A stretch of 64,000 nt of DNA from Hoyosella subflava DQS3-9A1 (lineage in GTDB: Bacteria; Actinomycetota; Actinomycetes; Mycobacteriales; Mycobacteriaceae): the NCBI RefSeq assembly GCF_000214175.1, contig NC_015564.1, positions 744,001 through 808,000 of the forward strand, written 5' to 3'. Of the stretch, positions 5,359 to 47,934 are shown one piece after another. The stretch's first letter is position 1, and each line of letters starts with the position of its first letter. Position numbers and translations under genes: made by a program. A model generated the notes under the pieces. The model saw nothing but the letters and a program-made list of their open reading frames with translations. It made no database searches and was not told the DNA's origin.

Positions 5359-7037
5359 GGACGTTGTGGCGCGCATTGAGGCTGCTCGAGATCCCCGCCG
5401 GGCGGACGTGCCTCGCGATCGCTGCGGCGACGGTCACACTCGGCTCCGCGCTGACCCTTGCTGGCGTGTCAGCATGGCTCATCATGCGGGCATTCGAGAT
5501 GCCTCCCGTGCTCGACCTCACCGTCGCGGTGGTGGCTGTCCGTGCACTGGGAATCAGCCGCGGCGTCTTCCGATACCTCGATCGACTCGCAACTCACGAC
5601 CTCGCGCTGCGCGGTACCGTCGCCGCGCGCACCACGGTCTACGAACGGCTTGCAACTGGGCATCCCAGGGCTGCTCTCGGCGCGAGCCGTGGTGGCATGC
5701 TGGCGCGCACGGGAGAAGACATCGACACCCTCGGTGAGACGGTGGTGCGTGCGGTCGTCCCCGCTGCGGTCGCGGTCCTGCTCAGTCTCGCTGCGGTGGT
5801 GGCCCTTGCCGTGATCGCGCCGGCTGCAGCGCTGATACTCGCGCTCGCGCTCATCGCCGCGGGGGTGCTCGCGCCACTGCTCGCCGCGGGGGCAGCCCGA
5901 CTGCGGGAAGCCGAGGCCGATCGCTATCGCGGGGAGCACCGTGACGCTGCCATGAACGTCCTCGACCATGCTGCTGAACTGAAAGTCTCCGGACAGTTCG
6001 GGGCGGCGGTGCTACGGGCTGAGACTTCGTTGCACAACTCCGATCGCTCAGCAGACCGAGCTGCGGTTTCGTCTGCTGGCGCTGCCTCCGTGACCCCCCT
6101 CGCGGTCGGCGTTAGTGTCATCGGCGCGTTGCTCATCGGGATGAACCTCTATGCAACAGACAGCCTGTCGATCACCTCGCTCGGAATTCTGGTGCTGCTG
6201 CCGCTCGCTGCCTTTGAAGCAACATCAGCGCTGCCCGACGCCGCAGTGCACCTTTTGCGTGCTCGACAGGCGGCAGGACGTGTGATGATGCTGCTCGATG
6301 AGGCAACAAGCGTTACCGCAGAGGGTCAGGGTGGGCGCGCGCATGGGCACTCGATCGCCGCCCAGCAACTCCACTGCGGATGGGGTGGCACCGTTGCGTC
6401 AGGACCACTCACTCTGAACTGGCCAGAAGGCAGCCGAGTTCTCATCACCGGACCGAGCGGTGCCGGCAAGTCCACCCTTCTAATGACGCTTGCCGGGCTC
6501 ATACCGCCGGTTGGGGGGTCAGCTGCAGCGGGGGGTCAGCCGCTAGACGATTGGGACCCCGATACGCTTCGCCGGACAGTCACATTCTTTGCCGAGGACG
6601 CGCACATATTCGCGACGACGCTGCGCGACAACCTGCTCGTTGCCCGGCCGGACGCGACCCGTGAAAACATGGTGGATGCGATGCAGCGCGTCGGTCTGGG
6701 CGACTGGCTCAACGAATTGCCTGACGGCCTCGACACGGTGCTCGTCGGTGGGGATGAGGCGCTATCCGGCGGGCAGCGGCGAAGGCTGCTTCTTGCCAGG
6801 GCGTTGCTCTCCCCGGCCTCGGTGTTGCTTTTAGACGAGCCGACAGAGCATTTGGATGCAGATGACGCGGCTCGCCTCCTGGACGCGCTGCTCGATCGGG
6901 ACAGCGGCCTCGTCCACCACGACAGGACGGTCGTGGTGGTGTCACACCAGCGGCCGTCGAGGACTATCCGGGCGTCGCGGGACCTGGAATGCCACGACGT
7001 TACGGGCGCTCCTGATATCGCGCGAACGTCGCGGTGA
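5355..7037 (+). CDS. cydC: Thiol reductant ABC exporter subunit CydC
   Basis: Partner of CydD in the heterodimeric thiol exporter. The 560-residue chain has a membrane domain to about residue 310 with the helical block VTLGSALTLAGVSAWLI, then Walker A GPSGAGKST at 366-374, the signature LSGGQRRRLLLARALL and Walker B VLLLDEP. The start is ATGAGG at 5355, overlapping the cydD stop. The last 38 bp overlap the convergent EF-G-like gene, so both 3' ends are read in opposite directions without an obvious terminator between them. Confidence 0.95.
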   Translation: MRTLWRALRLLEIPAGRTCLAIAAATVTLGSALTLAGVSAWLIMRAFEMPPVLDLTVAVVAVRALGISRGVFRYLDRLATHDLALRGTVAARTTVYERLATGHPRAALGASRGGMLARTGEDIDTLGETVVRAVVPAAVAVLLSLAAVVALAVIAPAAALILALALIAAGVLAPLLAAGAARLREAEADRYRGEHRDAAMNVLDHAAELKVSGQFGAAVLRAETSLHNSDRSADRAAVSSAGAASVTPLAVGVSVIGALLIGMNLYATDSLSITSLGILVLLPLAAFEATSALPDAAVHLLRARQAAGRVMMLLDEATSVTAEGQGGRAHGHSIAAQQLHCGWGGTVASGPLTLNWPEGSRVLITGPSGAGKSTLLMTLAGLIPPVGGSAAAGGQPLDDWDPDTLRRTVTFFAEDAHIFATTLRDNLLVARPDATRENMVDAMQRVGLGDWLNELPDGLDTVLVGGDEALSGGQRRRLLLARALLSPASVLLLDEPTEHLDADDAARLLDALLDRDSGLVHHDRTVVVVSHQRPSRTIRASRDLECHDVTGAPDIARTSR

Positions 7038-9006
7038 ACTGCCCGCGGCCATGTGTCATCGAGCGCATTGCCACTGCGTAGTCGAGTAGCTCTCCCTGGG
7101 GCACCGAAGCGATTACGGCTGTAGTGCCGTTGTCGCCGGGTTCGGTTCCTTCGATCTGGCCGCGCCGCCTGGCAAGGTCAGCGAGAACATCGCCCTGCAG
7201 AGCGTCGGGCACAGTGACTTCGACGTGGAATATGGGTTCCAGCACCTTCGTGCCACCCCGTTCGATTGCCTCCTTCAGCGCGAGAGCCCCCGCCATCTTG
7301 AAGCTGAACTCGTCGGAGTCCACCGAGTGATGTTTGCCGTCGACGACGGTGGCGCGGATATCGACGAGGGGATAGCCTTCGCGGCCGCCACGCGCCATGG
7401 ATTCCGCGATGCCTTTCCCCACTGCCGGGATCAGAGACTTGGGGATCACCCCGCCACGAGTCTCATCGACGAACTCAAACCCGGAGTCACGGGGGAGCGG
7501 CTCGAAACGCACAGTCGCGACACCGAACTGGCCGTGTCCGCCGCTCTGCTTTTTGTGCCTGCCCTCGGCCTGCACAGCCTCTGCGAGCGTTTCCCGGTAC
7601 GCGACCTTCACTGGTTCAGTGTTCACGCTGATGCCGAACCGCCGGTGCAGGCGAGTGAGGGCGACCTGGACGTGCATATCACCCGAGCCCCTGATGACGA
7701 GTTGATGAGTTTCCTGGTCGCGATCTGCGTGCAGGGTGGGGTCGTCCCGGACCATTTCAGCGAGTGCCGTCGCGAGCTTTTCTTCGTCCCCGGTGCGCTG
7801 CGGCGTGACGGCGATTCCGTACACGGGCTGCGTATTCACCAATTGGTGCACCTGGAACGTCGAGCCCGCAGGTGCCAAGGTGTCGCCAGTAGCTACGTCG
7901 GACAACTTGATCGCCGCCACCATGTCACCCGCGCTGGCAACGCCGACGCTTGTGGTTTTACTTCCGAGAACTGTCAGCAGGTTGTGCACGCGTTCTTTAT
8001 TTCCGGTGCGCTGGTTTATCAGGACATCGTCCGCGTGCAGCGTGCCCGAAAGCAACTTCATCAGCGCGACCTGGCCGACGTACTCGTCGGTTTGAGTTTT
8101 GAAGACGTACGCGATTGTCGGGCCGTCCGCGGTGCACGGCAGTTGCACTGTCCGACCCGCTTTTTCCAGGGTGCGGGGCGGCACGTCATCGGGACTCGGT
8201 CCGAGGCGGCAAATAAAGTCAAGGAGCCGGTCCACCGCAATCATCTCTGTCGCGGAGCCACACAGCACTGGCCATAGGCTTGCGTTCGCGAAGCCCGACC
8301 GCAGCGCGCGGTCGAGTTCAGCGACAGTGATGTTTTCGCCGTCGAGGTAGCGGGCGACCAGTTCGTCTTCGATCTGGATGACGTCCTCGACCAGGTGTTC
8401 GTGTTCTGCGCGTTCGTGTTCCGCGATCTGCGGGGGGACTTCATCGCGCTCGACAGTCGTCCCCGTGTCATAAAAGAACGTGTGTTCAGTGAGAAGGTCA
8501 CAGACGCCGGTGAAGGCTCGCGCTTCTCCGACGGGCAGCTCGATCGGCTCCACGCCCTGGCCGAAATGCGCGCGGACATCCTCGACCGTCGCGTCGAACG
8601 AGGCACGATCCTTGTCCATCTTGTTGACGAAAATCAGTCGGGGAATGGACCGCTCGGCTGCGATGGCCCACATCATTTCGTCGCTTACCTGCAGGCCGCT
8701 CACGCCGTCAACGACGAAGACCGCCATGTCGGCCACCTGGAGCGCGATATCCGCATCACCGGCGAAGTCGATATAGCCCGGTGTGTCGAGCAAATTTATG
8801 CGGTAATCATCTGAATCGAATGACGCCAGGCCAAGCGTGAGGGATTGCGCCCGTTCGCGTTCCTCGGGCTGCGTATCGAGAGTAGTGTTGCCGTTTTCGA
8901 TGCGGCCCGGACGGCTGACGACGCCAGCTGCGAAGAGCAGCGCTTCGGCCAGGGAGGTCTTTCCGTTGCCCTGGTGGCCCACCAGCGCGACGTTGCGTAT
9001 GCGCAA
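7000..9006 (-). CDS. EF-G-like translational GTPase (EF-G paralogue)
   Basis: 668-residue member of the elongation-factor G family, likely a specialised paralogue rather than the housekeeping translocase, which normally sits with rpsL/rpsG/tuf. G1 is GHQGNGKT at 10-17, G3 DTPGYIDF at 74-81 and G4 NKMD at 128-131. The G3 histidine that activates water in canonical EF-G (DTPGH) is Tyr78. Domains II-V follow, with KKQSGGHGQFG and the C-terminal HGRGQFTATFARY. It resembles the mycobacterial FusA2 class. The start is a TTG at 9006; no ATG or GTG is available in frame and the GGGGAGG ribosome site lies about 16 bp away. Confidence 0.88.
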   Translation of the reverse strand: MRIRNVALVGHQGNGKTSLAEALLFAAGVVSRPGRIENGNTTLDTQPEERERAQSLTLGLASFDSDDYRINLLDTPGYIDFAGDADIALQVADMAVFVVDGVSGLQVSDEMMWAIAAERSIPRLIFVNKMDKDRASFDATVEDVRAHFGQGVEPIELPVGEARAFTGVCDLLTEHTFFYDTGTTVERDEVPPQIAEHERAEHEHLVEDVIQIEDELVARYLDGENITVAELDRALRSGFANASLWPVLCGSATEMIAVDRLLDFICRLGPSPDDVPPRTLEKAGRTVQLPCTADGPTIAYVFKTQTDEYVGQVALMKLLSGTLHADDVLINQRTGNKERVHNLLTVLGSKTTSVGVASAGDMVAAIKLSDVATGDTLAPAGSTFQVHQLVNTQPVYGIAVTPQRTGDEEKLATALAEMVRDDPTLHADRDQETHQLVIRGSGDMHVQVALTRLHRRFGISVNTEPVKVAYRETLAEAVQAEGRHKKQSGGHGQFGVATVRFEPLPRDSGFEFVDETRGGVIPKSLIPAVGKGIAESMARGGREGYPLVDIRATVVDGKHHSVDSDEFSFKMAGALALKEAIERGGTKVLEPIFHVEVTVPDALQGDVLADLARRRGQIEGTEPGDNGTTAVIASVPQGELLDYAVAMRSMTHGRGQFTATFARYQERP

Positions 9007-9148
9007 ATCGCCGATGATGTTCGCCTCCCCTCGGGAAGGAGTCCGTGAGTACTTCGACAGTACCGCTCACGGACGATCGGGATCAGGGGTCTTGAAAAAT
9101 TCCGTTGCCGGTCAGTCCAGGTCCAGGTACCTTCGCAAGTACACGAGG

Positions 9149-9205
9149 AAGGAGGTGGTCCAGAAGATGATTGGCTTTAGGACACGTGAGGTGGCTGTCC
9201 GCTAG
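9149..9205 (+). CDS. 12-codon leader-type ORF with a very strong ribosome site
   Basis: ATG at 9167 to TAG at 9203-9205 encodes MIGFRTREVAVR. The ribosome site AAGGAGGTGGTC at 9149-9160 matches the 16S anti-Shine-Dalgarno almost perfectly, unlike most genes in this window, and is 6 bp from the ATG. The stop codon is the first three bases of a stem (9203-9210 pairing with 9258-9265). There is no longer reading frame of the same phase that looks coding. I do not recognise a named family; the strength of the start and the fused RNA structure support translation. Confidence 0.5.
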   Translation, partial: KEVVQKMIGFRTREVAVR

Positions 9206-9327
9206 CTGCCAGCTGCGCCAGGATTCACCCCCTGCCATTGGCAGCGAGCGAATACCAGGCAGCTACCCGGCCCCCGAACCACCGGCTAAGTCCAGTCGGT
9301 ACACACGGTTCGGGGGCTGTCCGTTTT
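9190..9327 (+). ncRNA. Structured RNA with alternative stems ending in an intrinsic terminator
   Basis: TAGCTGCC at 9203-9210 pairs perfectly with GGCAGCTA at 9258-9265, enclosing a small hairpin ctgcc-att-ggcag near 9232-9244. GGTGGCT at 9190-9196, inside the leader ORF, can pair instead with AGCTACC at 9261-9267, so the two stems exclude each other. Downstream, GCCCCCGAACC at 9270-9280 pairs with GGTTCGGGGGC at 9308-9318, with an inner ACCG/CGGT, followed by a T run at 9323-9327: an intrinsic terminator. A translating ribosome would decide which early stem forms. Role unknown. Confidence 0.55.
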
Positions 9328-9339
9328 TGCGGCCTCTCC

Positions 9340-9400
9340 ACCACACACCGGGAGTACGGACCACACACCGTCAGCAGAGGGTGTGTGGTCGGGAGTCACG
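9340..9400. repeat. Cluster of CCACACACCG repeats, direct and inverted
   Basis: CCACACACCG occurs at 9341-9350 and again at 9361-9370. GACCACACACC at 9359-9369 forms a perfect 11-bp inverted repeat with GGTGTGTGGTC at 9380-9390, loop 9370-9379. A further related inverted half (CACGGTGTGT) lies at about 9398-9406. No T run follows, so this looks more like a protein-binding cluster than a terminator. It lies between the structured RNA and the MpaB-type gene. Confidence 0.5.
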
Positions 9401-9450
9401 GTGTGTCGTGCCGTATGGGCGTCACTCGACCTGACTTTCAGCCGCTACGG

Positions 9451-9471
9451 TATGCTTTGATCAAATATCAA
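9451..9471 (+). promoter_or_regulatory. Promoter/operator region of the MpaB-type gene
   Basis: TATGCT at 9451-9456 is a plausible -10 element. It runs directly into the perfect palindrome TTTGATCAAA at 9456-9465, and TTGAT/ATCAA at 9457-9461 and 9467-9471 gives a second overlapping inverted repeat. Placement about 30-45 bp ahead of the ATG suggests a repressor site over the transcription start. No good -35 is visible. Confidence 0.4.
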
Positions 9472-9499
9472 GAGATGCGGTGTCCTGAGGGGGCGCACA

Positions 9500-10363
9500 A
9501 TGACGAGCGCTGCGAACAACAACGTGCCAGGCGGCACTTCGCCCGAGCCGCGCTTCGACTACGACATGTGGAACCACGTCGACGGCATCGCTGCCTTCCT
9601 CGCGGGGACGGCCAACGTCATCATGCAACTCAGCCTTCCTCCGGTCGGTTACGGAGTCGTTGAAAGCCCGGTCGACAGTGGGAAAGTGACGCTGCATCCC
9701 GTCAAGAGGTTGCGAACCACGTTGTCTTACCTCGCGGTTGCACTGCACGGCACCGAGGAAGAACGTCTGCGATACCGCGAGGCCGTCAACCAGTCACACC
9801 GGCAGATCCGGTCCCGTCCTGGCAGTCCCGTCAAATACAACGCGTTCAGCCCTCGGCTGCAACTCTGGGTGGCTGCCTGCCTGTACTACGGCATCGTGGA
9901 CATGACCGAGCGCCTCCACGGGCCGATCCCCGAGACTGACGCCGACGCGCTGTATGACTACTGCGCCCGCCTGGGTACGACGCTGCAGATGCCGCAGGAA
10001 CTTTGGCCCCCCGACAGGGCTGCGTTCGACGAATACTGGCGCCACACTCTGGCCGCGACGTCGATCGATGACACTGTTCGCGACTACCTCGCTGAATTGG
10101 TGGACCTGAAGGCGCTGCCGCTGCCGGTTCGGGCCCTGGCCGCGCGGCCACAGCGCTTCATTGCTACCGGCCTGCTCCCGCCCCATCTGCGCGACGAAAT
10201 GCGGCTTCCGTGGTCCGAGCGAGATGAACGCATTCTCGCAAAGGGACTTACCGCCATCGGAATGGTTTATCGGAGATTACCTCATATCGTCCGACGGTTC
10301 CCGATGAACTTCTACCTCTGGGACACACGCAGGCGGATGCGGAAAAACCTGCCTTTGGTGTAA
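9500..10363 (+). CDS. Oxygenase MpaB family protein (DUF2236)
   Basis: 287-residue protein of the DUF2236/MpaB family, relatives of which include the rubber-cleaving latex clearing protein and fungal MpaB. Visible family features are the DMWNHVDGIAAFLAGTANVIMQL start, a LHGTEEERLRYREAVNQSHRQIR segment read as two blocks, and FSPRLQLWVAACLYYGIVD. The histidines of NQSHRQI and the region around YYGIVD are in the place where the family binds haem. The ATG at 9500 has GAGGGGG 7 bp upstream. A perfect stem at 10366-10398 ends the transcript. The substrate is unknown. Confidence 0.85.
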   Translation: MTSAANNNVPGGTSPEPRFDYDMWNHVDGIAAFLAGTANVIMQLSLPPVGYGVVESPVDSGKVTLHPVKRLRTTLSYLAVALHGTEEERLRYREAVNQSHRQIRSRPGSPVKYNAFSPRLQLWVAACLYYGIVDMTERLHGPIPETDADALYDYCARLGTTLQMPQELWPPDRAAFDEYWRHTLAATSIDDTVRDYLAELVDLKALPLPVRALAARPQRFIATGLLPPHLRDEMRLPWSERDERILAKGLTAIGMVYRRLPHIVRRFPMNFYLWDTRRRMRKNLPLV

Positions 10364-47291: not shown

Positions 47292-47295
47292 GTGG

Positions 47296-47368
47296 TGCCC
47301 CCTCTCGGGCTCGAACCGAGGACCTGCGGATTAAAAGTCCGTAGCTCTACCAACTGAGCTAAAGGGGC
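47296..47368 (-). tRNA. tRNA-Lys (anticodon TTT)
   Basis: Cloverleaf on the minus strand: acceptor GCCCCTT / AGGGGGC, D-arm AGCTCAGTTGGTAGAGCT, anticodon loop CTTTTAA with anticodon TTT, T-loop GGTTCGAGC. Discriminator A at 47296 and an encoded CCA at 47293-47295. A strong terminator follows. Confidence 0.95.
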
Positions 47369-47497
47369 GTGGTTACTTACTGCGGAGACCATGCTAGCGA
47401 ATGCTCCGGGGTTACAGCACCCCGGATGTCGGTTGCCGCGAAATCAGTGGGTTTTGCCCACGTCAGCGGCGGACCGATGCAGCGTCGGCCACCGATT

Positions 47498-47526
47498 TTG
47501 TACTTTGCCGAATCCTGTCCTATGCT
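47498..47526 (+). promoter_or_regulatory. Promoter of the tRNA-Glu-Asp-Phe cluster
   Basis: TTGTAC at 47498-47503 and TATGCT at 47521-47526 with a 17-bp spacer, about 57 bp ahead of the first tRNA. Good match to a sigma-A type promoter. Confidence 0.6.
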
Positions 47527-47582
47527 TGGTCCGCTCCCAACGGAAACACTCGTTGGGGAAGCCAGCTGGAGAGATTCAGCGG

Positions 47583-47655
47583 GCCCCCTTCGTCTAGAGG
47601 CCTAGGACGCCGCCCTTTCAAGGCGGTAACGCGGGTTCGAATCCCGTAGGGGGTA
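47583..47655 (+). tRNA. tRNA-Glu (anticodon TTC)
   Basis: Acceptor GCCCCCT / AGGGGGT with a G-U first pair, anticodon loop CTTTCAA, T-loop GGTTCGAAT. No CCA encoded. First of three plus-strand tRNAs. Confidence 0.95.
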
Positions 47656-47687
47656 CACTCTCGCGGGAGTGAAACAGGAAAATGCAA

Positions 47688-47761
47688 GGCCCTGTGGCGC
47701 AGTTGGTTAGCGCGCCGCCCTGTCACGGCGGAGGTCGCGGGTTCGAGTCCCGTCAGGGTCG
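47688..47761 (+). tRNA. tRNA-Asp (anticodon GTC)
   Basis: Acceptor GGCCCTG / CAGGGTC, D-arm GGCGCAGTTGGTTAGCGC, anticodon loop CTGTCAC, T-loop GGTTCGAGT, discriminator G at 47761. Confidence 0.95.
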
Positions 47762-47807
47762 CTTTGTTGTACGATCGAAGCTCGTTAGCTCCTTCGGGCG
47801 CTGATTC

Positions 47808-47881
47808 GGCCAGGTAGCTCAGTTGGTACGAGCGTCCGCCTGAAAAGCGGAAGGTCGCCGGTTCGATCCCGGCCCTGGCCA
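47808..47881 (+). tRNA. tRNA-Phe (anticodon GAA)
   Basis: Acceptor GGCCAGG / CCTGGCC, D-arm GCTCAGTTGGTACGAGC, anticodon loop CTGAAAA, T-loop GGTTCGATC, discriminator A. Its 3' half is the integration target of the island that follows; the matching copy is at 53172-53194. Confidence 0.95.
47849..47871 (+). repeat. Attachment site, tRNA-Phe side (attL candidate)
   Basis: 23 bp from the anticodon stem through the T-arm of tRNA-Phe, identical to 53172-53194. The similarity continues with small differences 5' of this core (CTGAAA shared). Integrases of the tyrosine type commonly use this half of a tRNA gene. Confidence 0.65.
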
Positions 47882-47934
47882 CAGCAGGTTTTCGCTCCGG
47901 ATCGACTGGCTGGAATACAGCCACTATACGAACC

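Follow-up and report, generated by a model that had tools for sequence, protein, structure and literature searches.

The RNA and its surroundings

The DNA analysed here (the window) is a stretch of 64,000 nucleotides from the genome of Hoyosella subflava DQS3-9A1. At positions 9141-9328 it carries a small plus-strand RNA, flanked on one side by a minus-strand gene (7000-9006) for an elongation-factor-G-like protein with GTPase and EF-G domains, and on the other side by a plus-strand gene (9500-10363) for an MPAB/Lcp-type oxygenase. The EF-G-like neighbour, which is divergent to the RNA, groups only with the neighbours of L036 and L042, two loci of the same genus. Between the RNA and the oxygenase gene lie dense inverted and direct repeats of ACCACACACCG (9334-9410), whose 34-nt arms are 82% complementary and 4 nt apart; they may serve as an operator or form a second hairpin. 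Elsewhere the window holds a tRNA cluster at 47293-47882 (Lys on the minus strand; Glu, Asp and Phe on the plus strand).

The covariance model of Rfam family RF02471 (Ms_IGR-5, described as "Actinobacteria sRNA") matches the window at 9141-9325 with 145.3 bits (E 4e-33), exceeding its gathering score of 45 bits and covering model positions 1-184 of 184; it matches the genome nowhere else. The RNA is thus a member of an already catalogued family, and ordinary in that sense, whereas the author of the original prediction knew of no named family for it. The features to which we refer below are as follows.

9105-9133, plus strand: inferred SigA-type promoter, with TTGCCG (9105-9110), a 17-nt spacer and TACCTT (9128-9133)
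9141-9328, plus strand: whole RNA, comprising the RF02471 match (9141-9325) and the T run; z of the fold, -4.9
9142-9145, plus strand: 5' strand of helix P1a, at the probable RNA 5' end, pairing with 9185-9188
9146-9161, plus strand: extended Shine-Dalgarno sequence AGGAAGGAGGTGGTCC, 16 nt complementary to the 16S tail, with two G-U pairs
9158-9161, plus strand: GUCC of P1b, which can pair with GGAC 9180-9183
9167-9205, plus strand: 12-codon ORF MIGFRTREVAVR with stop codon TAG at 9203-9205, its frame kept in 142 of 145 loci
9180-9183, plus strand: GGAC, pairing with the Shine-Dalgarno sequence (P1b) or with loop 9290-9293 (pseudoknot)
9185-9188, plus strand: 3' strand of helix P1a, within the ORF
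9188-9193, plus strand: invariant, Shine-Dalgarno-like GAGGUG, 9 nt before the stop codon
9190-9199, plus strand: 5' strand of helix P3 (last codons), pairing with 9258-9267
9200-9210, plus strand: 5' strand of helix P2, containing the stop codon and pairing with 9240-9250
9240-9250, plus strand: 3' strand of helix P2, from the tallies of relatives and the minimum-energy fold
9258-9267, plus strand: 3' strand of helix P3, adjoining the terminator
9269-9318, plus strand: P4, the terminator hairpin, with inner stem 9282-9286:9295-9299; not called by a generic scan
9290-9293, plus strand: GUCC of the P4 loop, which forms the pseudoknot with GGAC 9180-9183
9324-9328, plus strand: T run of five T, read from the sequence

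For the comparative analysis we used 145 homologous loci, which were fetched automatically and hand-picked for spread over families rather than drawn at random; all were found with Rfam's own model, which favours its consensus. Upstream of the RNA, 128 of 142 homologues have a TANNNT hexamer 14-34 nt ahead of GGAGG, against 14.4 after shuffling, mostly at a distance of 23 or 22 nt (84 and 36 occurrences). A TTG-type hexamer precedes such a TANNNT by 15-20 nt in 103 of the 142 (2.4 after shuffling). The hexamer positions therefore place the probable RNA start at about 9140-9141, beside the first base of P1a. At the other end, the predicted terminator with a T run is seen as the hairpin 9269-9318 followed by five T at 9324-9328, but a generic scan of 9000-9500 reported no terminator and no consensus promoter. 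The RNA looks like a transcription unit of its own.

Surveys with Rfam's own model at E ≤ 0.001 matched 70 of 396 genomes of the phylum (35 above the cut-off), 249 of 394 of the class (247 above) and 114 of 151 of the family (104 above). Each matched genome had a single match in the phylum and family surveys; in the class survey G602 and G833 had two. None of Rfam's 14 control genomes contained a match. Some genera of the same family, some of them with small genomes, gave no match to RF02471 (for example G397, G398 and G399). Compact forms of ~130 nt occur in L075, L076, L077 and L078; as judged by eye, P2 is apparently absent from them and the stop codon apparently lies in the P3 loop.

Members of the family have been encountered before. 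PMC10454040 records an expressed M. smegmatis sRNA, IGR-5, which overlaps ncMSMEG15794c, and traces it by reference to Li 2013 to an Hfq-based screen in that species. Two further papers note its detection by RNA-seq in S. lividans (PMC8079986) and list the S. avermitilis homologue as an sRNA transcription unit (PMC8780764). In the papers reached by the search the RNA has no assigned function, and neither its ORF nor P1a, P3 or the pseudoknot is described; Li 2013, where the RNA was first reported, may contain more.

A near-maximal Shine-Dalgarno sequence precedes a short, apparently translated frame

The near-perfect anti-Shine-Dalgarno match claimed originally was confirmed: the 16 nt at 9146-9161 pair uninterruptedly with the 16S tail GGAUCACCUCCUUUCU, taken from the genome's own 16S genes. 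With -29.4 kcal/mol this duplex is the best on both strands of the 64-kb window, the next one reaching -23.6 (a four-base prefilter was used). The 13-nt core AAGGAGGTGRTCC has four occurrences in 4.86 Mb, namely this one and its complement at three 16S 3' ends.

The 12-codon ORF and its TAG at 9203-9205 are present as first described, and 142 of the 145 loci parse as Shine-Dalgarno sequence, ORF, GAG GTG, three codons and stop. None of these 142 loci has an internal stop in the ORF frame, whereas 132 and 112 have one in the two alternative frames; an in-frame ATG, GTG or TTG lies 6-16 nt past GGAGG in 130 loci, as opposed to 7 and 51. The start codons are TTG (74), ATG (44) and GTG (12); the remaining 12, located 8-9 nt from GGAGG and taken from a wider codon set admitted afterwards, are CTG (5), ATT (3), ATC (3, one of them followed by ATT) and ACG (1). 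Stop codons are TAG in 123, TGA in 13 and TAA in 6 loci. An open frame, a start at Shine-Dalgarno distance and closed alternative frames, the pattern of a translated RNA, are thus found together, and by this pattern the ORF looks translated. For the M. abscessus and M. smegmatis homologues, PMC4974804 reports significant ribosome reads, but it also cautions that footprints are common on non-coding RNAs.

None of the 145 loci lacks the hexamer GAGGUG; its distance from the stop codon is 9 nt in 142 and 8 nt in L070, L071 and L073. Its GAG and GTG codons are identical to the third base in 142 of 142 loci, the other codons varying in amino acid; the parse itself requires GGTG in this second motif, so the 142 parsed loci could not have lost it, and the three unparsed loci carry GAGGTG anyway. 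What had been proposed as a REVAVR peptide motif accordingly reduces to two codons fixed to the third base. In L070, L071 and L073 the open frame, assigned by eye, reads GGA-GGT and ends with a stop 8 nt downstream; it starts with TTG in L071 and L073 and with ATT in L070. Because these three loci shift frame over GAGGUG, it is the RNA that is conserved rather than the peptide, and they are the strongest sign that the ribosome matters and the peptide does not. GAGGUG forms a duplex of -11.4 kcal/mol with the anti-Shine-Dalgarno sequence and lies six bases upstream of the last sense codon, a distance that would correspond to the reach of the anti-Shine-Dalgarno sequence of a ribosome halted at the stop. 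Its invariance is partly explained by its partial overlap with P3.

Covariation supports a revised fold

The RNA folds with an MFE z of -4.9, and none of 200 shuffles folds as well. The minimum-energy fold contains P3, P2, the P4 hairpin and three P1b pairs; P1a is missing from it, and the method cannot show a pseudoknot. The 142 loci were aligned with MAFFT and all column pairs were ranked by a corrected G-test. The pair 9143-9187 (P1a) ranked first and 9196-9261 (P3) second, followed by pairs of the terminator, P1a and P3; neighbouring columns and certain cross pairs score as well.

P1a (9142-9145:9185-9188) is paired in 540 of 563 cells, or in 578 of 704 if a fifth pair is included; this fifth pair, 9146-9184, is unsupported (38 of 141 paired). 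Double-change cells number 27 at 9143-9187, 16 at 9144-9186 and 33 at 9145-9185. P1b (GUCC:GGAC) is paired in 96.7% of cells and shows no double change. For P3 (9190-9199:9258-9267) the proportion is 93.9%, with double changes in six of ten pairs; for P2, counted as 9200-9208:9242-9250, it is 76.6%, with double changes in eight of nine; and for the outer stem of P4 it is 91.6%, with double changes in all 11. The pseudoknot 9180-9184:9289-9293 is paired in 90.8% of cells and has double changes in two of five pairs: the flanking pair 9184-9289, with 58 double-change cells among 142 and 63% pairing compared with 39% after shuffling, and the pair 9180-9293, with two such cells; the three pairs between them have none.

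These helices were evaluated jointly in alignment A1, consisting of 62 of 96 loci that differ by at least 20% (34 were omitted, some for odd ends and the rest without a rule). P1a, P1b, P3 and P2 together are paired in 90.1% of cells compared with 80.6% after shuffling, and contain 134 double-change cells compared with 40.4, a value reached by none of 500 shuffles. When the partner strands were slid out of place, pairing fell to 29-42%. The 5' stem drawn by Rfam (9154-9159:9194-9199) is paired in 91.9% of cells, shows double changes in none of six pairs and equals 500 of 500 shuffles.

The original prediction had drawn two stems competing for the same bases, one starting with the stop codon (9203-9210:9258-9265) and one formed by the Glu-Val-Ala codons (9190-9196 with 9261-9267). 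The latter is present, extends to P3 as defined above and is supported. The 8 bp of the former exist in the window, but relatives keep them poorly, with 59.6% of cells paired among 62 sequences. Double-change pairs in this stem are no more frequent than in shuffles (352 of 500 reach the count); two of five measures, the percentage paired (59.6 against 57.0 shuffled) and the covariation score, exceed 498 of 500 shuffles. Hence both pairings can form here, but their competition as drawn is not a conserved feature, because the stop region has 9240-9250 as its partner, both by the tallies of relatives and in the predicted fold. Conservation attaches instead to a fold that has to open when a ribosome occupies the ORF.

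Taken together, covariation supports a fold other than Rfam's or the one first proposed, with a 5' helix around the Shine-Dalgarno sequence, P3 joining the last codons to the bases before the terminator, and a pseudoknot. Comparison among relatives establishes the RNA family, promoter, frame, Shine-Dalgarno sequence, P1a, P3, P2 and terminator hairpin and, less strongly, the pseudoknot. The stand-alone layout of a short ORF in an RNA under ribosome control, one of the two alternatives offered originally, agrees with the conserved ORF (142 of 145 loci) and with the compensatory changes seen in P1a, P3 and P2.

Relatives beyond Actinobacteria

A scan of named genomes with a loose sequence pattern returned at least 120 loci, and the matches listed include, apart from actinobacterial genomes, seven bins of Acidobacteria, three of 'Deltaproteobacteria', one of Leptospirales and a further bacterium. 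The loose pattern alone proves nothing; it matched 21 of 199 Acidobacteriota genomes compared with 10 for a reversed control, and one of 198 in the phylum of G883 (G883 itself) compared with five. The covariance model R1 was built from Actinobacteria alone, without terminator or pseudoknot. At E ≤ 0.001, R1 matched 25 of 199 genomes of Acidobacteriota (the phylum of a Candidatus Sulfotelmatobacter), among them eight of the 21 pattern-matching genomes, and five of 120 Spirochaetota genomes (the phylum of the Leptospirales bin), G884 included. In the phylum of the 'Deltaproteobacteria' bin G888, two of 317 genomes matched, one of them G888; the element is therefore rare there, and bins may be contaminated. 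With R1 matches in two other phyla, the family is not confined to Actinobacteria as its Rfam description has it.

R1 thus yielded 34 non-actinobacterial loci (25 in Acidobacteriota, five in Spirochaetota, and L391, L392, L393 and L395). An automatic parse of 33 of these gave an open frame and GAGGTG, with the stop exactly 9 nt past GAGGTG; open frame, GAGGTG and stop are present too in the 34th, L392, which is the place of L226. GAGGTG is kept, even in the AT-rich Spirochaetota, though most of the 34 loci are not among the pattern matches. The loop pairings of both Acidobacteriota and Spirochaetota were assigned by eye; in Spirochaetota the P4 loop follows the ORF, with GACC facing GGUC in L386 and L387, GACU facing AGUC in L385 and L388, and GACU facing GGUC in L384. 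In one Acidobacteriota group (L368-L371, L373, L375 and L381-L383) an extra base in the Shine-Dalgarno sequence (GGAGGATG) abolishes the unbroken match to the 16S tail; the rest is kept.

When 24 non-actinobacterial sequences were placed on the fixed actinobacterial alignment, paired cells amounted to 169 of 206 for P3, 69 of 96 for P1a, 59 of 96 for P1b and 53 of 96 for the pseudoknot; this lower pairing is perhaps partly due to differing lengths. The count excludes L338, the near-copies L351 and L353, and L193, whose spacing is too long to parse. Only two of 17 distinct non-actinobacterial loci given to RF02471 (L159 and L339) exceed its own cut-off, so that Rfam's model misses most non-actinobacterial relatives.

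R1 was also run on 26 given loci that are non-actinobacterial or of no stated phylum: 20 reached E ≤ 0.001, five fell at 0.001-0.03, and L338 had no match. L338 lacks the stop codon and was rejected as a chance pattern match. L394 (R1 E 8e-4; R1 E-values are rough) was likewise discarded as a chance match within coding sequence. Seven near-identical pattern matches, L350-L356, were unconfirmed by R1 (17.8 bits, E 0.027). A phage origin was considered and dismissed: 67 viral contigs fit the loose pattern, and the 25 inspected by eye resemble chance and lack the layout; the top R1 score on 28 viral contigs was 15.0 bits (E 0.13), and blastn against phages found no relative. A search of plasmids gave one match, in a Nocardia farcinica record of 2.66 Mb.

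A probable ribosome-gated small RNA

We conclude that the RNA is probably a translated small RNA that is gated by the ribosome. More specifically, we lean towards a stand-alone RNA that is switched between two states by a single ribosome and has its output in trans. The ~185-nt transcript would open with P1a, which would hold up the exceptionally strong Shine-Dalgarno sequence and the start codon in the loop above. One 30S subunit would bind and translate the minimal ORF, and its anti-Shine-Dalgarno sequence may then pair again with the internal GAGGUG, holding the ribosome at the stop and prolonging occupation. A ribosome at the stop codon would cover P1a, P3 and P2; without it, these helices and the GGAC:GUCC pseudoknot would form a compact body. 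Since GGAC pairs either with the Shine-Dalgarno sequence (P1b) or with GUCC of the P4 loop, formation of the pseudoknot would free the Shine-Dalgarno sequence, and since the RNA can be either folded or occupied, it would constitute a two-state, one-ribosome gate. Pausing at the stop, switching and an output in trans, through a target RNA or protein that tells the states apart, are what we infer from this arrangement; given that the RNA stands alone, it is likely to act in trans.

Gating is supported by the nearly fixed start spacing and by the often weak start codon (TTG in 74 of 142 loci; CTG, ATT, ATC or ACG in 12) behind a near-maximal Shine-Dalgarno sequence. In addition, the frame is kept open, GAGGUG is invariant in 145 loci as the other codons change and three loci shift frame, the helices containing codons covary, homologues are expressed and carry ribosome footprints, and the neighbours are not conserved. 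Against it speak P1b, without a double change, P1a, outside the minimum-energy fold of the window RNA, the overlap of GAGGUG with P3, the published caution on footprints, and the lower pairing in the 24 non-actinobacterial sequences. A bolder version, for which we would argue only tentatively, sees an ancient RNA (Actinobacteria, Acidobacteriota, Spirochaetota and a few 'Deltaproteobacteria') serving occupation by exactly one ribosome, in which the maximal Shine-Dalgarno sequence and weak start would read the supply of ribosomes or initiation factors, the internal Shine-Dalgarno sequence would hold the ribosome at the stop, and the pseudoknotted body would signal 'no ribosome' in trans.

Alternatively, the target might be the translation machinery itself: the 16 nt that match the 16S tail would capture or park free 30S subunits or sense the supply of initiation factors or ribosomes, and the ORF would only fix one ribosome in place. 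IF3 rejects weak start codons, and the weak starts found here are of that kind; the Shine-Dalgarno sequence spans the whole 16-nt tail and is the strongest in the window, and an invariant partner, the 16S rRNA, would explain an invariant GAGGUG. However, if each copy occupies one ribosome, the RNA must be abundant to matter, and such a function would not by itself account for the conservation of P3 and the pseudoknot; we regard it as unlikely.

The name given by Rfam, and the Hfq-based screen in which IGR-5 was found according to the reference to Li 2013 in PMC10454040, would suit a non-coding sRNA that pairs with target mRNAs in trans through its purine-rich stretches, the ORF being a by-product. 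This is improbable in view of the frame counts, both the 0 internal stops in 142 loci against 132 and 112 in the other frames and the 130 starts at Shine-Dalgarno distance against 7 and 51. A small mRNA whose product is a micropeptide would fit the E-V near the peptide end, which is kept from Actinobacteria to Spirochaetota. Yet GAG and GTG do not vary even at the third base in the AT-rich Spirochaetota, the other codons vary in amino acid, and the same RNA is read in another frame in L071, L073 and, if an ATT start is admitted, L070, which makes this explanation highly improbable. Finally, a cis-acting attenuator of a downstream gene, the other alternative offered originally for a leader-like ORF beside a terminator-like hairpin, is largely refuted and barely tenable because the neighbours are not conserved, the nearest downstream ORF (simple ORF caller) lying on the same strand in 70 of 142 loci, on the other strand in 60, with none found in 12, and with gene families that differ between genomes; moreover, P3 ends at 9267 and the terminator stem starts at 9269, so that the two share no strand.

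The preferred reading of a ribosome-gated RNA, the revised fold and the wider distribution were not met in the literature searched. If this reading is true, an RNA listed as an sRNA for Actinobacteria becomes a widespread bacterial small RNA that functions as a ribosome-gated switch, with an ORF maintained for the sake of its ribosome instead of its peptide. Its role also becomes testable, the codons, pairings and two states being named base by base. If, in addition, occupation by exactly one ribosome is what the RNA serves, it would form a new class of regulatory RNA, one that senses translation capacity in a general way.

Comparison with known systems

The RNA is the same as RF02471 Ms_IGR-5 from end to end (145 bits). 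It differs in that Rfam's structure line lacks P1a, P3 and the pseudoknot and contains a 5' stem with double changes in none of six pairs, and in having relatives outside Actinobacteria.

In infC-type systems, start codons are subject to control by IF3. The 12 of 142 members with CTG, ATT, ATC or ACG behind a strong Shine-Dalgarno sequence resemble them; in contrast, the other 130 use TTG, ATG or GTG.

In leader-peptide attenuators, such as those of the trp type or the mycobacterial polycysteine uORFs, translation of a short ORF excludes other RNA pairings. Our RNA shares with them the short ORF and a translation that would exclude other pairings, but has no conserved same-strand downstream gene and no run of a sensed amino acid.

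The dual-function sRNAs SgrS, SR1 and RNAIII encode a conserved peptide apart from their base-pairing part. Like these, the RNA described here stands alone and also seems to be translated. In contrast to them, its peptide mostly drifts and, by the codon tallies and the three loci in another frame, is not conserved beyond the needs of the RNA, and its ORF is woven into the fold.
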